Below, one piece after another: positions 1,377 to 58,500 of a stretch of 64,000 nt of DNA. Under the pieces are notes generated by a model. It searched no databases and had not been told where the DNA came from. It saw nothing but the letters and a program-made list of their open reading frames with translations. The DNA comes from Hyphobacterium sp. CCMP332 (GTDB lineage Bacteria > Bacteroidota > Bacteroidia > Cytophagales > CCMP332), in NCBI GenBank assembly GCA_014323545.1, contig CP058647.1, positions 1,900,001 to 1,964,000 on the forward strand, written 5' to 3'. Each line of letters starts with the position of its first letter. The stretch's first letter is position 1. The position numbers and the translations under genes are program-made.

Positions 1377-2768
1377 ATGAAGAATAAGTATATCGACCTC
1401 ATTGACCAGACTTTCAATTTTCCTCAGGAAGAATTTACGCTGGACAAAAATCAATTAGAATTTCACGGCATTGACTTGATGGGCTTGGTGAAAAAGTACG
1501 GTACCCCATTGAAGTTTACTTATTTGCCTAAAATTTCAGATAATATCAAAAGAGCTAAAACCTGGTTTGCAGATGCCATGCAGCGACACCAGTATAAAGC
1601 GGACTATCATTATTGCTATTGTACTAAAAGTTCACATTTTTCATACGTTTTAAATGAGGCTTTAAAAAATGATATTCATATAGAAACCTCTTCGGCCTAT
1701 GATATTAATATTGTTGAAACCCTTATCAACAATGGGAAACTGACCAAAAAGAGTTTTGTGATTTGCAATGGTTATAAACGCGATCAATATGTAGAAAATA
1801 TTGTAAGGCTGATAAAAAAAGGGTTTAACAGAGTTATTCCAATAATCGACAATGTACAAGAGCTCAGTCTCTTAGATGAAAAATTAAACCAGGAATTTGA
1901 AATTGGTATAAGAATAGCTTCTGAGGAAGAACCAAAGTTTGAGTTTTATACATCTCGTCTTGGAATTGGATACAAGGATATTGTACCTTTTTACAAACAT
2001 CAGATACTTGAAAAAGAAAATGTTAAGCTTAAGATGCTTCACTTTTTTATTAATACAGGGATTAGAGACAATGCCTACTATTGGAATGAGTTGACAAAAT
2101 GTTTAAAGGTCTATGCGGATTTAAAAAAGGTTTGCCCGGATCTTGATTCTTTAAATATTGGCGGGGGCTTTCCTATTAAGAATTCCCTGAGTTTTGAGTT
2201 TGATTATGCCTATATGATCAATGAGATCATTGCACAGGTTAAAGCAATATGCGATGAAGAGAACATTCCGGAACCAAACATATTTACTGAATTCGGATCA
2301 TTTACGGTAGGTGAAAGTGGTGGTGCAATTTTTGAGATTTTGGGTCAGAAACAGCAAAATGATCGTGAAAAATGGAACATGATCAACAGTTCATTTATGA
2401 CAACCTTACCGGATACGTGGGCAATTAACCGACGATTTATACTTCTTCCTTTAAATCGTTGGGACAATGAATACGAAAGAGTGCTTTTAGGCGGATTGAC
2501 CTGCGACAGCGATGATTATTATAACTCTGAGCAACATATTAATGCAATATATTTACCCAGATTCAGAAAAGATAAGCCATTGTATATTGGGTTTTTTAAC
2601 ACCGGAGCCTATCAGGAAACCGTAGGAGGATTTGGTGGTTTGCAGCATTGTCTAATCCCAACCCCAAAGCATATTTTGATCGACAGAGACGAAAATGGTA
2701 AATTAATCACAAAAGTTTTTGCCGAATCTCAGAAACCTGAAGACATGTTAAAAATACTGGGATACTGA
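1377..2768 (+). CDS. speA: Biosynthetic arginine decarboxylase (alanine-racemase fold)
   Basis: Converts arginine to agmatine with PLP, the first step of polyamine synthesis in the cytosol. The 463-aa protein is much shorter than E. coli SpeA (about 650 aa) and represents the compact Bacteroidota form. The PLP lysine is probably K84 in YCTKSSHF. Other fold-III signatures are the glycine loop GGGFP at 262-266 and the second-subunit active-site CDSDD at 376-380. The start ATG follows an AT-rich leader. Agmatinase starts one base after the stop, so the product is handed to the next enzyme. The N-terminal 50 residues have no extra domain. A related decarboxylase specificity (for example for another basic amino acid) cannot be excluded by eye, but the adjacent agmatinase argues for arginine. 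Confidence 0.85.
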   Translation: MKNKYIDLIDQTFNFPQEEFTLDKNQLEFHGIDLMGLVKKYGTPLKFTYLPKISDNIKRAKTWFADAMQRHQYKADYHYCYCTKSSHFSYVLNEALKNDIHIETSSAYDINIVETLINNGKLTKKSFVICNGYKRDQYVENIVRLIKKGFNRVIPIIDNVQELSLLDEKLNQEFEIGIRIASEEEPKFEFYTSRLGIGYKDIVPFYKHQILEKENVKLKMLHFFINTGIRDNAYYWNELTKCLKVYADLKKVCPDLDSLNIGGGFPIKNSLSFEFDYAYMINEIIAQVKAICDEENIPEPNIFTEFGSFTVGESGGAIFEILGQKQQNDREKWNMINSSFMTTLPDTWAINRRFILLPLNRWDNEYERVLLGGLTCDSDDYYNSEQHINAIYLPRFRKDKPLYIGFFNTGAYQETVGGFGGLQHCLIPTPKHILIDRDENGKLITKVFAESQKPEDMLKILGY

Positions 2769-2769
2769 A

Positions 2770-3615
2770 ATGAAAACTTTTGCCGGAATACCCAAAGAAT
2801 ACCATCAATTAGACAATGCAGAAATAGTCTTAATTCCAGTGCCCTATGATGGAACAAGCACATGGGGAAAAGGGGCAGACAAAGGTCCTGAAGCTTTTCT
2901 TGAAGCAGCTGAGAACATGGAGCTATTTGATATTCAGACAAGAACAGAAGTTTATAAAAAAGGCATTCACCTGGCCAAAGCTGTTACTGAAAATGACAGT
3001 CCGGATGCAATGGTCAAAGCTGTTCACAATACAGCAAAATCATTTTTGGATAAAGGTAAATTTGTTACACTTTTTGGTGGTGAACATTCCATCAGTATAG
3101 GAAGCATAAGAGCTTTTGATGAAAAATTTGATGATTTGACTGTATTGCAAATCGATGCCCACACCGACTTAAGACCTGAATATCAAGGTACGCCATATAA
3201 CCATGCCTGTGCAGTTTATGAGGCTTCAAAAAGAAATAATTTGATACAGGTTGGAATAAGAAGCATGGATATTGTGGAAATGGAACACCTTGATGAATCA
3301 AAAGTATTCTGGGCTCATGAAATTCACAAAAGTATGGACTGGGTAAACAGAGCCATTGAATTAATGACAGAAAATGTATTTATTACCATTGATCTCGATG
3401 CTTTTGACCCTTCAATCATGCCCAGCACAGGAACACCTGAACCGGGCGGAATGAACTGGTGGCAAATGGATTATTTCTTGAGCAAGGTAATTAATTCCAA
3501 AAGTGTAGTGGGTTTTGATATTGTTGAACTTGCCCCAAATAAAAATAACAGGGGCCCTGATTTTCTTTCGGCAAAACTTTATTATAAATTATTGAGCTAC
3601 ATATATTCTAAATAG
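2770..3615 (+). CDS. speB: Agmatinase (ureohydrolase family)
   Basis: Hydrolyses agmatine to putrescine and urea using two Mn ions. At 281 aa it has normal family length. All three metal motifs are intact: GGEHS with H106, DAHTD with D129, H131 and D133, and DLDAFDP with D208 and D210, followed by the agmatinase-type STGTPEPGG loop. It is the middle gene of a three-gene operon with arginine decarboxylase upstream (1-base gap) and a DHS-like gene 7 bases downstream. It serves as an internal comparison for the second ureohydrolase-fold gene at 51.9 kb, which has lost several of these ligands. Confidence 0.92.
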   Translation: MKTFAGIPKEYHQLDNAEIVLIPVPYDGTSTWGKGADKGPEAFLEAAENMELFDIQTRTEVYKKGIHLAKAVTENDSPDAMVKAVHNTAKSFLDKGKFVTLFGGEHSISIGSIRAFDEKFDDLTVLQIDAHTDLRPEYQGTPYNHACAVYEASKRNNLIQVGIRSMDIVEMEHLDESKVFWAHEIHKSMDWVNRAIELMTENVFITIDLDAFDPSIMPSTGTPEPGGMNWWQMDYFLSKVINSKSVVGFDIVELAPNKNNRGPDFLSAKLYYKLLSYIYSK

Positions 3616-3622
3616 AAAAACC

Positions 3623-4594
3623 ATGTCTAAGCCAATTACAGAGTTTATTGAAAAATATTTCCTTCATTTTAACGCTGCCAGTCTGGTGGATGCAGCCAAA
3701 GGTTATGAAAAACACCTCAATGAAGGTGGCAAAATGATGATCACTCTGGCCGGAGCAATGAGTACAGCAGAACTCGGTAAAATTCTCGCCGAGATGATCC
3801 GGCAGGACAAAGTCAGTATAATATCATGTACAGGTGCAAACCTGGAAGAGGATTTGATGAATTTGGTAGCGCACAGCCATTATAAACGCGTTCCTAACTA
3901 CAGAGATTTAACACCGAAGGAGGAATGGGACCTTTTAGAGAAAGGATTGAACAGGGTAACAGACACCTGTATTCCCGAAGAAGAGGCTTTTCGAAGATTG
4001 CAAAAGCATATTTTTGAGATATGGAAAAATGCGGATGAAACAGGGGAGAGAAAGTTACCGCATGAATACATGTATCAAATGATTCAATCAGGAGTGCTCA
4101 AAGAATATTATGAAATTGATCCCAAAGATTCCTGGATGGTTGCTGCAGCAGAAAAAAACCTGCCAATTATTGTGCCCGGATGGGAAGACAGCACCATGGG
4201 GAATATTTTTGCTTCCTATTGTTATAAAGGGGAATTAAAAGCCTCCACCATGAAAAGTGGAATAGAATACATGACCTATTTATCAAAATGGTATATTGAA
4301 AATTCGGGAGGGAAAGGCGTTGGTTTTTTCCAGATCGGTGGTGGAATTGCGGGTGATTTTCCGATATGCGTGGTGCCAATGCTTTATCAGGATCTGGAAA
4401 TGGAAAACATACCGTTTTGGTCATATTTTTGTCAAATTAGTGATTCTACGACAAGCTATGGTTCCTATTCCGGGGCGGTGCCAAACGAAAAAATCACCTG
4501 GGGCAAACTGGATATTAATACACCTAAATACATCATTGAGTCAGACGCTACAATTGTAGCTCCTTTAATTTTTGCCTATCTCTTAGGGATGTGA
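3623..4594 (+). CDS. Deoxyhypusine-synthase-like aminobutyl transferase (probable homospermidine/polyamine synthase)
   Basis: A 323-aa member of the deoxyhypusine synthase family. The catalytic-lysine motif is clear: ITWGKLD with K295, corresponding to the lysine that carries the aminobutyl imine in eukaryotic DHS, followed by IIESDATIVAPL. The Rossmann-like NAD region is visible as AGAMSTAELG (residues 43-52) and SCTGANLEED. Bacteria lack the eIF5A substrate, and bacterial relatives are known or suspected to transfer aminobutyl groups to small amines, giving sym-homospermidine. Its place directly behind arginine decarboxylase and agmatinase, which supply putrescine, supports a polyamine product. 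The exact product (homospermidine, or another triamine) is inference. No S-adenosylmethionine decarboxylase, spermidine synthase or carboxyspermidine gene is nearby. Confidence 0.8.
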   Translation: MSKPITEFIEKYFLHFNAASLVDAAKGYEKHLNEGGKMMITLAGAMSTAELGKILAEMIRQDKVSIISCTGANLEEDLMNLVAHSHYKRVPNYRDLTPKEEWDLLEKGLNRVTDTCIPEEEAFRRLQKHIFEIWKNADETGERKLPHEYMYQMIQSGVLKEYYEIDPKDSWMVAAAEKNLPIIVPGWEDSTMGNIFASYCYKGELKASTMKSGIEYMTYLSKWYIENSGGKGVGFFQIGGGIAGDFPICVVPMLYQDLEMENIPFWSYFCQISDSTTSYGSYSGAVPNEKITWGKLDINTPKYIIESDATIVAPLIFAYLLGM

Positions 4595-49435: not shown

Positions 49436-49573
49436 ATCTGATTATTCTGATAAATAAGACCGCAATTTAAGCTTCATTAGTTCTTTTTGGAATTTTTCGT
49501 GAATCAATTCAAACTTTTCATCGATAGAGTTAAATAAATCATAAATTTGAACTTCGTTTTGAATGATGATGAT

Positions 49574-50416
49574 ATGGCCTGGTTTAATAGGAAAGCCAAA
49601 GGAATTCAAACACCTACTGATCAGAAAAAAGATGTACCCGATGGTTTGTGGTACAAAACTCCTTCCGGAAATATTAGTCATATGGCAGAGCTCAAGAAAA
49701 ACAGCTATGTTGTACCGGAAGATAACTATCATGTAAGGATTGGTTCCAAAGAGTATTTTGAAATAATTTTTGATAAAAACAAATTTCAGGAGCTGGATGC
49801 AAATATGTCATCAGCCGATCCATTGAATTTTGTAGATACCAAAGCTTATCCCGCAAGAATAACTGCAACCCAGCAAAAAACTGGATTGAAAGATGCTGTT
49901 CGTTCGGCTGTTGGTAAAATGAACGGTAAGGAAATAGTTATTAGCTGTATGGACTTTCAGTTTATTGGTGGAAGTATGGGATCGGTTGTGGGGGAAAAAA
50001 TTGCCAGGGCAATTGATTATTCGAGAAAACATAAAATTCCATTTTTAATGATTTCAAAATCCGGGGGTGCCAGAATGATGGAAGCCGGATTTTCCCTAAT
50101 GCAGCTTGCGAAAACTTCTGCCAAACTTAGATTGCTGGCGGATGAAAAAATTCCTTTTATTTCGTTATTGACAGACCCAACTACAGGGGGCGTTACCGCT
50201 TCGTTCGCCATGTTAGGAGATTTTAATATAGCCGAACCCGGAGCCCTTATTGGTTTCGCCGGGCCTAGAGTAATAAGGGAAACAATCGGTAAAGATTTAC
50301 CTAAAGGATTTCAAAGTGCGGAATTTTTAATGGAACATGGATTTCTCGATTTTATCGTTGACAGACGTGATCTCAAGCGCACACTTACAGATTTATTAAA
50401 AATGCTTGAAAATTAA
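49574..50416 (+). CDS. accD: Acetyl-CoA carboxylase carboxyltransferase beta subunit, without zinc ribbon
   Basis: Carboxyltransferase half of acetyl-CoA carboxylase, for malonyl-CoA in fatty acid synthesis. 280 aa from the ATG giving [15 protein letters not shown], as in the family; a 9-residue upstream extension is unlikely. The normal four-Cys zinc ribbon is present only as an outline: the positions are T29, G32, V47 and D50. The crotonase fold is intact, with [22 protein letters not shown] near 119-140, [19 protein letters not shown] near 157-175 and [16 protein letters not shown] near 200-215. The Cys loss matches what I recall of Bacteroidota AccD. Confidence 0.92.
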
Positions 50417-50522: not shown

Positions 50523-51821
50523 ATGGTAATCATTGCGTCAATAATAGCTTTTACAATAGTGATTGTTTTGCTGGTATTGATATTACTTTTTGCTCAATCA
50601 AAATTAGTGCAGCAAGGTGATGTCAAAATTGTAATAAACGGAGATGAATCTAACCCGGTTGTCGCATCGGCTGGTGGAACTTTGCTATCTACTTTGTCAT
50701 CGCAGAAATTGTTTCTTCCTTCTGCATGTGGTGGAGGAGGTACTTGTGCCATGTGCAAGTGCGTGATAGAAGAAGGAGGGGGAGATGTACTTCCTACAGA
50801 AGAAGGGCATTTGTCCAGATCTGAGAAAGAAGAAGGTGTAAGACTTTCTTGTCAGGTCAAAGTTAAAAACGATATGAAAATCAGAATTCCGGATGAAATT
50901 TTCGGGATTAAGAAATGGGATTGTGAAGTTGTTTCAAATTATAATGTCGCTTCTTTTATAAAAGAATTTGTTGTAAAACTTCCGGCAGGTGAAAACCTGG
51001 ATTTTAAATCCGGTGGCTATATACAAATTGACGTCCCTCCGATTGAAGTGGACTTTAAAACTATGGAGATTGCTCCTTTGCCCGATGATCCGGCCGGGGA
51101 GGAAAAATTTAAACCAGAATGGGATAAATTCAATCTTTGGGATCTGAAAATGAAAAACGATGAGGAAATTTTCAGAGCATATTCAATGGCCAATCACCCG
51201 GCAGAGGGAGATATTATAATGCTGAACATTAGAATTGCCACTCCGCCATGGGATAGAGCAAAAAATTCTTGGATGGATGTGAATCCCGGTATTTGTTCAT
51301 CCTATGTTTTTTCAAGAAAAAAAGGTGATAAAGTAACCATTTCCGGACCTTACGGAGAGTTTTTTATTAAAGAAACAGAGCGTGAAATGGTTTACATCGG
51401 TGGAGGAGCAGGTATGGCACCACTAAGATCTCATATTTTCCACTTATTCCATACGCTCAAAACCAACAGGAAAGTGAGTTATTGGTACGGGGGGAGATCG
51501 CGCAGGGAATTATTTTATACTGAACATTTCAGAAAAATAGAAAAGGAATTTCCAAATTTTAGCTATCATATTGCATTATCTGAACCACTTGAAGAGGATA
51601 ACTGGAAAGTAAAAAAAGACATCGACGACAAAGAAGGAGAAGGATATGTAGGATTCATTCACCAGGTGTTTATCGATAATTACCTAAGTAAACATCCAGA
51701 TCCGGAAGAAATAGAATTTTACTTCTGCGGACCTCCAATGATGAATGCTTCTGTATTAAAAATGTGTGATGAATATGGCATTCCACCTGAAAATGTCGCA
51801 TTTGACGATTTTGGAGGATAG
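50523..51821 (+). CDS. nqrF: Na+-translocating NADH:quinone reductase subunit F
   Basis: NADH-oxidising subunit of the sodium-pumping Nqr complex in the inner membrane. 432 aa. N-terminal membrane helix (about 3-24), 2Fe-2S domain with C69, C75, C78 and C110 in [14 protein letters not shown] and LSCQV, then a ferredoxin-reductase FAD region (RAYSMANHP near 219) and NADH-binding [17 protein letters not shown] near 296-312, ending with [13 protein letters not shown] and the Nqr-like terminal DDFGG. It is slightly longer than the Vibrio protein (407 aa). The other nqr genes are not beside it: accD is upstream, and a terminator and a ureohydrolase-like gene are downstream. Confidence 0.92.
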
Positions 51822-51872: not shown

Positions 51873-53033
51873 ATGAGCTTAAGCATATTTTTTAATCCTC
51901 TTGAAGATAAATTCTTATCCTTTTCGGGTAACAAGCACAGTTTTGGTCATAAACTGAGTAAGAACGATTCCACACCCGTCAACTGGCAGCAACATGACAT
52001 TGCCATAATTGGCATAGATGAATACAGAGGGTCGCATGCCGGCCAAAAACAAAATGGCGGACCTGATATTATTCGAACCGCACTATACAATCTGTCTGGC
52101 TGGAATAGTGAGAAAAAAATAATCGATCTTGGGAATCTAAGACCTGGAGAAAATTACAAGGAAACGCAAAACCGTTTGCAAAGCGTCCTTGAGTTGCTCT
52201 TTGAGAATGAGATCATCAGTATAATTGTTGGCGGATCCCAGGATCTTGATTTACCACAATATGCAGCTGCAGAAGTGCTCAATAAAATGATCAATTTTGG
52301 AAGTATTGATTCGAGAATAGATTTCGAACCTGATGTTGAGGGCGTTCCGGCAGACCGCAGTCATTTGCATAAAATACTCACACACGAACCAAACTACCTT
52401 TACAATATTTGCAGTATAGCGTATCAATCCTATCTGGTTCAAAAAGATATGATTTCACTTATGGAGAAATTGTATTTTGAAGGAATACGACTTGGCGCAA
52501 TTCACGATGACATCAAAGAGATTGAGCCCTTTTTAAGAAACCTCGATATTTTAAGTTTTGATATTTCTGCATTGCGGGGGCAGGATGCGCCGGGCCAATC
52601 AGAACCACAACCATTTGGGATGAGCCCTGAACAGGCTTGTCAGCTCGCCTGGTATTCAGGGCATGGTGCAGGTGTACAAAGTATTGGTTTTTACGGTTAT
52701 CAGCCAAAGCAAGATAAGGATGCATTAACTGCAAAACTACTGGCTACCATGATATGGTATTTTGTAGAAGGGTTTAACCACAGAAAAATTGAAACTTCAT
52801 TTTCAAGTAATGACTATCAAAAGTTTACGGTAGCCTTTAGCGGTTCACCATCAGAACTGGTTTTTTACAAGAGTCTTAAAACAGATAAATGGTGGATAGA
52901 AATACCTTTGCTTAAGAGTCAGAATAAATACAGACATTTTAAATATATACCCTGCAGTTATCAGGATTATCTTCAGGCAGGCAAGGGAGAAGTACCCGAT
53001 AAATGGATTCTTGCCCAATCGAGAATTGCCTGA
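51873..53033 (+). CDS. Ureohydrolase-fold protein with degraded metal site (formimidoylglutamase-like)
   Basis: 386 aa with the arginase/agmatinase fold and an added C-terminal segment. The metal motifs are partly lost: GGxH reads GGSQ with Q123 for His, DxHxD reads DSRID with R148 for His (D146 and D150 kept), and the DxD motif reads FDIS with S232 for the second Asp (D230 kept). Such proteins are often annotated formimidoylglutamase in Bacteroidota, but with three ligands gone a di-manganese hydrolase is doubtful. It lies in a probable operon with two TonB-CTD proteins (25-base gap), which suggests an envelope or gliding-related role rather than histidine breakdown; no hut genes are seen. 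The role is inference. Confidence 0.7.
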   Translation: MSLSIFFNPLEDKFLSFSGNKHSFGHKLSKNDSTPVNWQQHDIAIIGIDEYRGSHAGQKQNGGPDIIRTALYNLSGWNSEKKIIDLGNLRPGENYKETQNRLQSVLELLFENEIISIIVGGSQDLDLPQYAAAEVLNKMINFGSIDSRIDFEPDVEGVPADRSHLHKILTHEPNYLYNICSIAYQSYLVQKDMISLMEKLYFEGIRLGAIHDDIKEIEPFLRNLDILSFDISALRGQDAPGQSEPQPFGMSPEQACQLAWYSGHGAGVQSIGFYGYQPKQDKDALTAKLLATMIWYFVEGFNHRKIETSFSSNDYQKFTVAFSGSPSELVFYKSLKTDKWWIEIPLLKSQNKYRHFKYIPCSYQDYLQAGKGEVPDKWILAQSRIA

Positions 53034-53058: not shown

Positions 53059-53817
53059 ATGGCAAAATGGAAAATATTTACACTAGGCCTTTTATTTTAC
53101 GCATTCACAGCAAAATCTCAATACGATTTTTCTCCGGAAAATGTCGGTGGAAAAGTAGAAGCTAAAAGAATCATCAGCGAAGCATTTTGTCCAGATAAAA
53201 TTAAACCCGAAAACAGACTCCCGGGCAAAATAATACTGACTTTCATAGTAAATAAAGATAAAAGCATTGATTCATTGAATTTTGCTAAAAGTTATAACGA
53301 TGAAGTCGATAAAGAAATAGAAAGCGTATTTCCGGCAATCCAATGGCTGCCTGCACTTATTGAAAATGAACCGGTAAGTTCCTGGCATATGTTTGAGTTT
53401 CGCGTTAATTCTAAATTTTTCCTAAACTCCGATTTATGTGATGCCAAACCATTTGATAAAGTTTATTCATATATAGATTTAGATGAAAAACCCGAGTTTA
53501 TTTGGGGTGATTTCAACAAATGGGTTTACAACAAATTGGAATATCCCGAAGTAGCTTTGAAAAAAGGAATTGAAGGCTCTGTACTGACTCGTTTTGTGAT
53601 TGAAAAGAACGGAAAATTAAGCAACGTTGGTATAGCCAGAAGCGTTGGCGGAGGATGTGATGAAGAAGCTTTAAGAGTTATAAGAATAAGTCAATGGCGG
53701 CCGGGTCGAAAGGAAGGGAAACCGATAAGAACCCAGGTTTACTATCAAATCACATTTAAAACAAGAGGGTCGAGTTTTAAAACGATACATTCGGGAGATA
53801 TGATTAAAGGGCAATGA
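53059..53817 (+). CDS. Exported protein with two TonB C-terminal-like domains (copy 1)
   Basis: 252 aa with a signal peptide (about 1-20, ending TAKS-Q) and no other membrane segment. Two TonB-CTD-like units: one at about 45-125 (LPGKIILTFIVNKDKS, IQWLPALIENEPV) and a clearer one at about 155-245 (YPEVALKKGIEGSVLTRFV, GGGCDEEALRVIRIS, WRPGRKEGKPI). There is no Pro-rich linker and no anchor as in TonB proper. Cysteines near 131 and 200 have matching positions in the next gene. Paralogue of the downstream gene, with which it overlaps by 4 bases. It may be a periplasmic TonB-domain adaptor. Confidence 0.7.
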   Translation: MAKWKIFTLGLLFYAFTAKSQYDFSPENVGGKVEAKRIISEAFCPDKIKPENRLPGKIILTFIVNKDKSIDSLNFAKSYNDEVDKEIESVFPAIQWLPALIENEPVSSWHMFEFRVNSKFFLNSDLCDAKPFDKVYSYIDLDEKPEFIWGDFNKWVYNKLEYPEVALKKGIEGSVLTRFVIEKNGKLSNVGIARSVGGGCDEEALRVIRISQWRPGRKEGKPIRTQVYYQITFKTRGSSFKTIHSGDMIKGQ

Positions 53818-54575
53818 GATATATTATTATCGTAATGTTTTTCTGGCCGAATATTCTTTTTTCACAGGACAAAGCAAGGAATTTTGGAGGTCAAAAAGAG
53901 AAAAAAAGAATGTTTGAACAGGAACTGTATTACGCACCCGGTTCATTAAAAAAGTATTATGGTGGAAAGGTAGAACTTGAATTTGATCTTGATGAGAACG
54001 CCCGGATCAGCAATATTCAAATACTAAAATCTGTAAGTAAGGAATTGAATGAAGAGGCCATAAGATTATTAAAATTAATGCTCTGGATTCCGGCACAGGA
54101 AAATGGGCACCCAATAAATAGCCATGAATCAATTTCCTTCAAGTTTAATCCGAAAAAGTATAAACAGATTTGTAATAAAAGGGGTTACGAACTCGAAAAA
54201 CCCGATTCAGATTTTACTTTTAAAGTATATCATGAAAAGGATCTGAGTTTTAAGCCAAGCTTCCGGGGAAGAGAAAAAAATTTTCAGAATTATGTTAAGG
54301 AAAATCTGGCATATCCCGAAGCAGCCTTAAAGTATAATGCTGAGGGAATAGTTGAAATACAATTTGTAATAGAACCGAGTGGACGTTTAACCAATATTCA
54401 CCTGGCAGAAAAGCTTGAAGCTAATTGCGATATCGTTGCAAAGAATTTAATTCTAAAATCAAATTGGAACCCCGGGAATATTAATGGTCTTCCTGTAAGA
54501 ACCTTAATCAGCAGAAAAATATATTTTTCACCCAAGGGAAATCAGCCATTTATATCAATACCAGAAAAAGAATGA
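53814..54575 (+). CDS. Exported protein with two TonB C-terminal-like domains (copy 2)
   Basis: 253 aa, paralogue of the preceding gene with the same plan: signal peptide (about 1-18, ending LFSQ-D), first TonB-CTD-like unit about 35-110 (GGKVELEFDLDENARI, LWIPAQENGHPI), second about 150-245 (YPEAALKYNAEGIVEIQFV, WNPGNINGLPV). Cysteines in KQICNKRG and EANCDIVA correspond to those in copy 1. The ATGA overlap with copy 1 points to coupled translation. The two probably arose by tandem duplication and then diverged in sequence while keeping the frame. Confidence 0.7.
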   Translation: MRYIIIVMFFWPNILFSQDKARNFGGQKEKKRMFEQELYYAPGSLKKYYGGKVELEFDLDENARISNIQILKSVSKELNEEAIRLLKLMLWIPAQENGHPINSHESISFKFNPKKYKQICNKRGYELEKPDSDFTFKVYHEKDLSFKPSFRGREKNFQNYVKENLAYPEAALKYNAEGIVEIQFVIEPSGRLTNIHLAEKLEANCDIVAKNLILKSNWNPGNINGLPVRTLISRKIYFSPKGNQPFISIPEKE

Positions 54576-54686: not shown

Positions 54687-54720
54687 AAGGCTGGCTTGGT
54701 TTCTGAGTCAGCCTTCTTAT
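54687..54720 (+). terminator. Hairpin upstream of pnuC, possible terminator
   Basis: AAGGCTGGCT (54687-54696) and AGTCAGCCTT (54706-54715) pair over ten positions with one G-T, loop of nine, then CTTATTTT. It could end the TonB-CTD operon, or act as a leader structure for pnuC. It overlaps the first possible TTG start of pnuC, which argues for a later start. Confidence 0.55.
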
Positions 54721-54731
54721 TTTCGCCCTCA

Positions 54732-55337
54732 GTGAATCTTATTACCTTTTTTATTAATTCTAACTTTTTAAGCATTGAAAACCTCGCTGTTATCTTCAGT
54801 ATAGGCTTTGTAATTTTTAATGCAAAAGGCAAGATAATTTCCTGGCCTTTAGGCATAATTGGTTCAGCACTTTATATATGGGTTTTCATCAATGCGAGAA
54901 TATACGGTGATGCCCTTCTTCAATTTTTTTACGTCCTCATGGGAATTTATGGTTGGGTGCAATGGCGAAGTGCAATTAAAAACGATGATGTATTACCCAT
55001 CATTAGTGCAAAACTATCTCAAATAATAAAATACCTTTTAGTAGGCCTATTATTGGTGCCAATTTTTGGATTTCTGTTGGATAATAGAACTGATTCGGAT
55101 ATACCATACTTAGATGCATTTACCACAGTTTTTAGTTTTATTGCCACCTTTATGATGGCAAAAAAAGTACTAGAAAACTGGCTATTTTGGATCATCATCG
55201 ATCTGACATGCATTTTTATCTACACTTTTAAAGGATTGAATTCAACTGTTGTGCTATTTATTATTTACACTTTGATGGCTCTATACGGTTTTATTAATTG
55301 GAAATTGATGCTCAATAAACAAAAGCAAAATGCCTAA
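54732..55337 (+). CDS. pnuC: PnuC-family vitamin transporter (nicotinamide riboside or thiamine)
   Basis: About 201 aa with seven membrane segments and the PnuC features WPLGIIGSALYIWVFINARIYGD (about 38-60), FFYVLMGIYGWVQWR (64-78) and a closing YTLMALYGFINWK. PnuC proteins are facilitated transporters for nicotinamide riboside; the PnuT branch carries thiamine. Bacteroidota PnuT genes are found with TPP riboswitches and TonB receptors, as here further downstream, so thiamine is a live option; the NadR-like kinase next door favours nicotinamide riboside. The start is unclear: GTG at 54732 is given because an earlier TTG falls in a hairpin loop. The end overlaps the kinase gene by 8 bases. 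Confidence 0.8.
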   Translation: MNLITFFINSNFLSIENLAVIFSIGFVIFNAKGKIISWPLGIIGSALYIWVFINARIYGDALLQFFYVLMGIYGWVQWRSAIKNDDVLPIISAKLSQIIKYLLVGLLLVPIFGFLLDNRTDSDIPYLDAFTTVFSFIATFMMAKKVLENWLFWIIIDLTCIFIYTFKGLNSTVVLFIIYTLMALYGFINWKLMLNKQKQNA

Positions 55338-55854
55338 TATCGTTTTGATAGGATCTGAGTGTTCTGGGAAGACGAGTTTGGCAGAAGCTCTTGCCGGGTA
55401 TTTTGACATAGATTTTCTCCATGAATATTCCAGACAATATGCAGAAAGTAAAGAAAGTGAACTAAGCTATAAGGATGTAATGCCTATTGCAAAAGGACAG
55501 TTGAAATCTGAAAAGGATTTTATAAAAAATACAAAAAGCCGTTTATTAATTTTTGACACCTGTTTGCTATCAACCTATATATACAGTAAAATCTACTATA
55601 AAAAAGTACCGGAAAAACTTAAATATTGGCTTGATTTAAATTTATACGATCACTTTTATCTGACTTTCCCCGATCCTGAATGGAAAGAGGATGGAATTCG
55701 AAAAATGCCAATGTCAAGATTAAAAATGCATGAGTTTTTTTTAAGTGAATTAGTGCGATTTAAGGTGTCATATTCAGAGTTAAGAGGAGACCTTCAATCC
55801 AGAAAAGAAATTGTTATTGGAGATTTGAAACAATACTATTCAGCTAAGTTTTGA
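55330..55854 (+). CDS. AAA-type ATPase/kinase of the NadR C-terminal (ribosylnicotinamide kinase) type
   Basis: 174 aa, a P-loop kinase. Walker A GSECSGKTS at 8-16, DFLHEYSRQYAESKE near 28-42 (a NadR-like EYxRxY), LLIFDTCLLSTYIYSKIYY near 76-94, and a C-terminal DLKQYYSAKF. In Bacteroidota it is seen either fused to nicotinamide-nucleotide adenylyltransferase or standing alone beside pnuC; it would trap imported nicotinamide riboside by phosphorylation. Thiamine or another vitamin is a possible alternative substrate given the downstream TPP-riboswitch receptor. Translationally coupled to pnuC by overlap. Confidence 0.75.
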   Translation: MPNIVLIGSECSGKTSLAEALAGYFDIDFLHEYSRQYAESKESELSYKDVMPIAKGQLKSEKDFIKNTKSRLLIFDTCLLSTYIYSKIYYKKVPEKLKYWLDLNLYDHFYLTFPDPEWKEDGIRKMPMSRLKMHEFFLSELVRFKVSYSELRGDLQSRKEIVIGDLKQYYSAKF

Positions 55855-56439: not shown

Positions 56440-58500
56440 ATGAAATATGCATTCACAACGGCATTCATAATAATATGGAGCCTATCAATTGCACAGGATT
56501 CATTAAAAAATATTGAGCTTGAAGAGGTCTACATTATAGGTATTAGGGCTAAATCAGAGGCTCCTGTAAGCAAAACAACAATTCGCAAAGCCGAATTACA
56601 AAAAATTGATCTGGGCCAGGATGCCTCCTTGCATTTGGAAAGATTAAGTCCGTCTATAGTGACTTATTCGGACGCCGGGACGAATTTTGGCAATTATATG
56701 AGTTTCCGTCTACGCGGAATGGCGCAAGATCGTATTAATGTAACCTTGAATGGTATTCCATTAAATGATATGCTCGATCAGGGTGTTTATTTTTCAAACT
56801 TTGCCGACTTCAGCAACAGTATAGAATCCGTACAAATTCAAAGAGGTGTTGGAACTTCAAGCAACGGAACTTCTTCCTATGCAGGTTCTATAAATTATGA
56901 AAGTATTAGTCTTTATTCTGAAAAACCAAAAGCTGAACTGCGATTAAGTGGAGGCAGTTTTGGCTCAATGGGATTAGCGGCTGAAGCTTATTCAGGAAAG
57001 AACGAAAAAGGATTTTCGGCATACGCAAGAGCTTCAAGAATGAAGTCTGAAGGTTACAAGGATTATTCTGGAAGTGACGCCCATTCATTTTTCTTTTCCG
57101 GCGGATATATAGGTGAAAAGCACGTAATTAAGATTACAGGTTTTATGGGTAAAACTCAAAATCATCAGAGCTACGAATATGTTTTAAAAGATGTAATAAA
57201 TAAGCGACCAAGAACGAATAACAATAACCCCAATGATATCGATGACTTTGAGCAGGATATGGCCCAGCTTCAGCATACCTTTTTTTTTAGTAAGCGCTTA
57301 TCATTGTCATCAATACTATATTATACAGGAGCAAGAGGATATTTTCCATATGCTTTCCCTCAATCTGTTTCAATTCCTGTCGATACCCTTTCTATTGCAT
57401 ACGATACAACTATATTAACACAATATAATTATGGGATTGTCAATAATCAGTACGGGGCTACCAGCAACCTTCATTACCATACCAATGATCTTGATGTTGA
57501 TGCAGGTATTCACTTATATACTTTCAACCGGCGGAATACTGAGGATGTTTCTCCGAATGCCAAGTTTCCATATTTATCTCAAAACAGTTTTAAAGACGAA
57601 GCTTCCGTTTTCATAAAAGCAAGCAAAAGATTCGATCCCTTAAATATGATTCTATTTGCTGAATCCCAAATGAGATATGTAAAAATGAGTTTTGAACCGG
57701 GTCAGGATGGGATAAATTCAACTTCAAAATCGTACTTTTTTTTAAATCCAAGAATTGGGATCACTTACAATTTAAGAACCGATATGAATTTGTATGCTTC
57801 TTTTGGTCGAACCGGACGGGAACCGACGAGAATCGACTTTTTTAGCAATGACTTTAGTATCAAGGAAGAATTTGTAAATGATATTGAGCTTGGGTACAGA
57901 CTGACTAAAGATAAGCTGAAATTAAATCTCAATGCATTTTATATGGATTTTGAGAATGAGATTACCGAATTGGGGGGAGTGATTCAAAACACTTACTTTG
58001 AAATACGGCAAAATGTAGCCAGCAGTCAGCGCTATGGACTTGAGTTGGAAACCGAATATAGAATTATTAAAAATCTGGATTTTAGATTGATGGCAAGCTA
58101 TTTAAGGACAAATATAGATAATGTCACTTTGGAAGGGAATAGTGAAAATAACGTTGAGCAGGTATTATCACCAGATTTTATTGTTACCCCAGAACTAAGC
58201 TATACTTTTAAAGAAAAATTCAGTATTAATGTCAATGCAAGGTATTTGTCAGAAGCCTTTACTGATATTTTTAACCAGCCTGAATATCAGATTCCTTCCA
58301 GCTTAATTTTTAATTCGGGGATTGACTATAAGGTGTCAGAAAATGTCAGCGCTTCACTTTTTTTCAATAACATCACAGACGAATTGTATTTTACGGATGG
58401 CGCGCCAATTGATACCGACTTCGATGGCGTACTGGATGGACCTGGATTCAGGGTTCAGGCACCAAGGAATATCATGGGTAGACTTACAATTCTATTTTAA
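56440..58500 (+). CDS. TonB-dependent outer membrane receptor, probable thiamine(-phosphate) receptor
   Basis: 686 aa. Signal peptide (about 1-18, ending SIAQ-D), then a TonB box-like LEEVYIIGIRAK (about 25-36), plug domain with LERLSPSIVTYSDAGTNFGNYMSFRLRG region (68-95) and LNGIPLNDMLDQGVYFSNFADF (split, 105-125), then the 22-strand barrel, with GRTGREPTRIDFF near 462-474 and the terminal SASLFFNNITDELYF...MGRLTILF end. Control by a TPP riboswitch predicts uptake of thiamine or a thiamine phosphate, as for the receptor called Omr1 in Bacteroidota. It would work with ExbBD-TonB, possibly with TonB-CTD proteins of the nearby operon. Confidence 0.9.
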   Translation: MKYAFTTAFIIIWSLSIAQDSLKNIELEEVYIIGIRAKSEAPVSKTTIRKAELQKIDLGQDASLHLERLSPSIVTYSDAGTNFGNYMSFRLRGMAQDRINVTLNGIPLNDMLDQGVYFSNFADFSNSIESVQIQRGVGTSSNGTSSYAGSINYESISLYSEKPKAELRLSGGSFGSMGLAAEAYSGKNEKGFSAYARASRMKSEGYKDYSGSDAHSFFFSGGYIGEKHVIKITGFMGKTQNHQSYEYVLKDVINKRPRTNNNNPNDIDDFEQDMAQLQHTFFFSKRLSLSSILYYTGARGYFPYAFPQSVSIPVDTLSIAYDTTILTQYNYGIVNNQYGATSNLHYHTNDLDVDAGIHLYTFNRRNTEDVSPNAKFPYLSQNSFKDEASVFIKASKRFDPLNMILFAESQMRYVKMSFEPGQDGINSTSKSYFFLNPRIGITYNLRTDMNLYASFGRTGREPTRIDFFSNDFSIKEEFVNDIELGYRLTKDKLKLNLNAFYMDFENEITELGGVIQNTYFEIRQNVASSQRYGLELETEYRIIKNLDFRLMASYLRTNIDNVTLEGNSENNVEQVLSPDFIVTPELSYTFKEKFSINVNARYLSEAFTDIFNQPEYQIPSSLIFNSGIDYKVSENVSASLFFNNITDELYFTDGAPIDTDFDGVLDGPGFRVQAPRNIMGRLTILF

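Follow-up and report, generated by a model that had tools for sequence, protein, structure and literature searches.

The gene at positions 51873..53033 (forward strand) of the window, i.e., of the whole 64,000-nucleotide stretch that was analysed, raises the question of what a protein with the fold of the ureohydrolases does after part of its metal site has been lost. The open reading frame starts with ATG, has no internal stop and encodes 386 residues; the protein and its class-wide family are called ARG* here. Pfam Arginase (PF00491) matched residues 42-296 with 54.2 bits against a curated cut-off of 22, and at E 0.01 it matched 81 of 88 family members. The AlphaFold2 model, calculated from an 88-row alignment, reached a pLDDT of 95 and a pTM of 0.93, and the ureohydrolase fold that had been read from the letters was recovered in this prediction. 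The best match among the PDB folds was the formiminoglutamase of T. cruzi (4mxr, TM 0.83 by target), and metformin hydrolase and the formimidoylglutamase of B. subtilis were also among the best solved folds. With TM values of 0.80-0.83 by target against 4mxr and 3m1r, the model has an arginase-type fold. Inspection of the N-terminus (MSLSIFFNPLEDKFLSF...) by eye revealed no evident signal peptide, and thus ARG* is most likely cytosolic. The identity to the agmatinase of the same window (2770-3615) is 21%, and the motifs still align. This agmatinase is the intact ureohydrolase of the window (206 bits to TIGR01230). It lies in a row with an arginine-decarboxylase-like and a deoxyhypusine-synthase-like gene (3623-4594; both by eye), and the region 1377-4594 is probably a polyamine operon.

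In rat arginase I, the first metal is bound by H101, D124, D128 and D232 and the second metal by H126, D124, D232 and D234, and in arginases the Glu of the AExxP motif binds the guanidinium group. The ligand alignment placed Q123, D146, R148, D150, D230 and S232 of ARG* at the six positions. Q123 (codon 52239..52241) stands at the His of GGxH, which is a first-metal ligand, R148 replaces the His of DxHxD (codons D146-S-R148-I-D150, 52308..52322), and S232 replaces the second Asp of DxD (codons D230-I-S232, 52560..52568); all of these codons are on the forward strand. D146, D150 and D230 are kept. The original prediction had named exactly these replacements at three of the six ligands. We take positions 148 and 232 to be the ligands that belong exclusively to the second metal, and Q123 to be one of the four ligands of the first. 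In addition, comparison with intact homologues revealed G275 (codon 52695..52697, forward strand) at the position of the catalytic Glu. Judged by ligands and Glu, ARG* would fall outside the catalytic di-Mn ureohydrolases (arginase, agmatinase, HutG), and it probably does not catalyze hydrolysis.

The class sample comprised 149 genomes across the class of the host, and an alignment of 89 diverse ARG* members was used. A further 80 loci, from Flavobacterium, a Kordia and loosely named MAGs, were obtained by a Flavobacterium-centred profile scan of named genomes. ARG* was present in 141 of the 149 class genomes, as a rule with one match per genome, and the relatives were mostly 27-42% identical to the protein of the window. 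Beyond the class only weak matches were found, and these were confined to the 300-residue core. Not one of the 169 aligned members (89 plus 80) has all six di-Mn ligands, and the two ligands exclusive to the second metal never occur together in this set. The loss is thus ancient and does not reflect the recent decay of one gene. The notion that the protein is probably not a di-Mn hydrolase therefore extends to the clade, and the original observation was correct and even understated, as the alignment points to a class-wide loss and not to a local oddity. The proposal that the three substituted residues might be fixed held for the loss itself but not for the letters, since Q is found at position 123 in 59/89, K or R at position 148 in 43/89 and S at position 232 in 44/89 class members. 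Among the Flavobacterium-set loci, 72/80 have K or R at position 148. The catalytic Glu is present in 44/89 relatives. The median dN/dS was 0.044 over 61 usable pairs of Flavobacterium orthologues, which reveals strong purifying selection and agrees with the earlier view that the intact frame is under selection.

In a tree with intact formimidoylglutamases, agmatinases and an arginase, ARG* formed one clade with a support of 100/100. The closest sequence family is HutG (TIGR01227; PDB 3m1r, 1xfk, 4mxr), which shares the fold with a TM of up to 0.83 by target. The nearest NCBIfam model is hutG and the nearest folds are formimidoylglutamases, and both would fit an active formimidoylglutamase, or another guanidino hydrolase, that works with unusual ligands. 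We regard this as very improbable. ARG* scored 63.1 bits with TIGR01227, far below the equivalog cut-off of 229.15, and differs from HutG also in its missing second-metal ligands, in the missing Glu of the window protein and in an additional C-terminal tail of about 85 residues. Moreover, the second-metal pair is never complete in the 169 sequences, and intact formimidoylglutamase-like proteins exist separately in the class.

An inactive protein of this fold could also associate with an intact paralogue to form a hetero-oligomeric hydrolase, in which it would be the inactive subunit. A precedent is metformin hydrolase (MfmAB / MetCaCb), in which either subunit alone is inactive and activity is gained only together (PMC11271267); it shares the ureohydrolase fold with ARG* and is among the closest folds. 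In contrast to this enzyme, ARG* occurs without any intact paralogue. It is the single Pfam Arginase match in four genomes (G036, G046, G114 and G124), one of which is 100% complete (G114), and two further genomes (G065 and G101) do not contain any Arginase match of canonical strength. With at least four ARG* genomes devoid of another Pfam Arginase match, obligate pairing is mostly refuted, and among the explanations considered here we give this one the least credence. A closer parallel might be TbARG, an arginase-like protein of Trypanosoma brucei that is devoid of the binuclear Mn cluster (Hai et al. 2015, as cited in PMC5602898). It is reported to have kept the arginase fold and lost the metal cluster, like ARG*, and to be unable to convert arginine to ornithine. 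TbARG is eukaryotic and represents one lineage, whereas ARG* is found class-wide in bacteria. We know of neither an added C-terminal tail nor a conserved gene neighbourhood for TbARG. The loss of the cluster from a relative of the ureohydrolases has its precedent in TbARG.

If the chemistry has been lost, the residues under constraint should point to what has been kept. Nine residues are invariant in 89/89 members (G87, E218, R222, G249, W295, G300, F331, W340 and C361), and eight of these nine are located within the last 170 residues, i.e., in the C-terminal half. They include the E and the R of the EPFLR motif (codons E218 to R222, 52524..52538, forward strand). Three further ones, F331, W340 and C361, lie in the C-terminal extension (residues 302-386, 52776..53030, forward strand), as does W341, which is conserved in 88/89 members of the alignment. 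This tail is missing from intact ureohydrolases, and no relatives of it were found in Pfam, the PDB sequences or the PDB folds; when folded alone, the tail had a pLDDT of only 80. In two loci, L199 (1489-2481, genome G443) and L201 (1468-2334, genome G200), the ligand-bearing N-terminal half has decayed beyond recognition, and the E..R, WW and C361 motifs have been retained in an intact C-terminal half. The position of the invariant residues and the loss of only the ligand half in these two loci argue for a conserved function that resides in the C-terminal half.

The remains of the first metal site have to be weighed against this. The first-metal set, i.e., H, Q or N at position 123 together with the three Asp, is kept in 60/89 class members and in 80/80 Flavobacterium-set loci, which is more than a pure scaffold needs. 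A single-metal site is thus a live rival: Q/H123, D146, D150 and D230 would bind one ion, K/R148 would occupy the place of the second metal, and the protein would sense or convert a substrate. The frequent K or R at position 148 (43/89 and 72/80) would fit such a site, and ten members, same-order relatives among them, have the complete set of His and three Asp. In addition, Asn takes the place of this His in the formiminoglutamase of T. cruzi, the N114H variant of which is PDB 4myn. However, the set is broken in 29/89 members, each of the three retained Asp being present in only 69-77/89, two lineages have lost the whole half, the residues that never change are mostly elsewhere, and the catalytic Glu is gone in half of the family as well as in the protein of the window. 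A single-metal protein is, in our estimation, unlikely. We consider the chances to be about even that ARG* is a class-wide, usually single-copy, cytosolic relative of formimidoylglutamase in which the second metal site, and with it the di-Mn chemistry, is gone and which has been kept for binding. Its working surface would then consist of the helix with E218-R222, the helix with W295-G300 and the tail with F331, WW340-341, C361 and Y366. ARG* would most likely be a regulator or a scaffold, and what it binds may be another protein or a small ligand.

The gene neighbourhood offers candidates for a partner. In the window, an NqrF-like gene with 2Fe-2S, FAD and NAD domains (Pfam; 50523..51821, forward strand) ends 51 bp upstream of ARG*. 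Since this gene is on the same strand, the assumption that ARG* heads an operon is not clearly borne out, and nqrF is found just upstream of ARG* also in three same-order relatives. The first of two genes whose products each contain two TonB C-terminal domains (Pfam; 53059-53817 and 53814-54575, together 53059..54575, forward strand) starts 25 bp downstream. From these two genes an envelope function had been proposed. They are absent beside ARG* in four same-order relatives and in all other loci searched, so that the adjacency is unique to this window, and the linkage was rejected on the criterion that the original prediction had set for itself, a gene order not shared by relatives; the proposal is likewise not favoured by the N-terminus, in which no signal peptide was seen by eye.

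A different gene order recurs in the class, namely topA - ARG* - [PorP/SprF] - GldK - GldL - GldM - GldN, in which the Por and Gld genes, named by NCBIfam models, form the core of type IX secretion and topA was assigned by eye. It was found in about 35 of 81 loci of the class sample, distributed over many families, and in nearly all of the 80 Flavobacterium/Kordia loci, including F. columnare and F. branchiophilum. In the genome of the host, GldL is located about 112 kb from ARG* (G000:C1:2064076-2064837). The median gap is 9 bp between topA and ARG*, with some overlaps, and 143 bp between ARG* and the secretion genes, and therefore a transcript shared with topA is more probable for ARG* than one shared with the secretion operon. 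A second recurrent neighbourhood was observed in about 15 loci (L036, L055, L056, L060, L064, L066 and others), in which ARG* is divergent from a gene similar to NAD-dependent epimerases.

The distribution of ARG* was compared with that of GldL. In the class sample, 139 genomes contain both, two contain ARG* alone, two GldL alone and six neither. The order sample consisted of 247 genomes around G032, and a match was counted as strong at E below 1e-40, a cut of our own. A strong ARG* was found in 170/247, 168 of them with GldL; 61 genomes have only GldL and 16 have neither. The Fisher p values of 6e-8 (class) and 2e-7 (order) are confounded by phylogeny, as the genomes are not independent, and the co-distribution backs a link to secretion only moderately. 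GldD was also considered as a gliding partner that tracks ARG*, and it was rejected because it is present in 211/247 genomes, more than the 170/247 with a strong ARG*, and singles out nothing. Four genomes have ARG* without GldL or GldM (G059, G106, G478 and G443). The completeness of G106 is 81%, and the ARG* gene of G059 lies close to the end of a contig. G443, a single contig with 99% completeness, has retained topA-ARG* without GldL and GldM.

The last genome bears directly on another explanation, namely that ARG* is a housekeeping protein of a topA operon, which lies beside the type IX genes, and is absent together with them, owing to inherited gene order and losses in common and not to function. 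The short median gap to topA would be expected from this, as would the observation that in most families without GldL the sister genomes with GldL are already without ARG*. On the other hand, ARG* is away from topA in 46/81 loci, and its carriers nevertheless nearly always have GldL. On balance, we judge this explanation rather unlikely. Under the preferred reading, a protein kept for binding, the likeliest partner system would be type IX secretion with its inner-membrane motor, the core genes of which adjoin ARG* in much of the class. ARG* and PorP/GldK-L-M-N share a genomic neighbourhood and their distribution, but ARG* is not a described type IX component, and a search of the literature on this gene together with gliding, gldK or type IX secretion yielded nothing relevant. 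The 143-bp gap, the 61 genomes with GldL and without a strong ARG* and the exception of G443 argue against the link, which is of low certainty. It is conceivable, albeit somewhat doubtful, that a former ureohydrolase with a new C-terminal domain now regulates, or helps to assemble, the type IX secretion and gliding motor from the cytosol throughout the class, and has gone unrecognised in this role. Its fold, which suggests a hydrolase, would explain why it was overlooked. If ARG* is tied to type IX secretion, a cytosolic part would be added to a secretion and gliding motor whose membrane and periplasmic components are known best.

ARG* can readily be taken for a hydrolase of histidine or arginine degradation, and metabolic reconstructions based on the fold would err. 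Within a single fold, the family also documents the loss of a metal site in a large number of natural variants, and stages of the decay are visible.

Several other genes of the window deserve mention. A PnuC-type transporter gene and an AAA_28 (NadR-kinase-like) gene follow at 54696-55854, and a gene similar to TonB-dependent receptors (by eye) is located at 56440-58500; together they are likely a cluster for the uptake of a vitamin or an NAD precursor. A carboxyltransferase (AccD-like) gene lies at 49547-50416. The TTG listed as its start probably precedes the true one, as a relative begins at MAWF.
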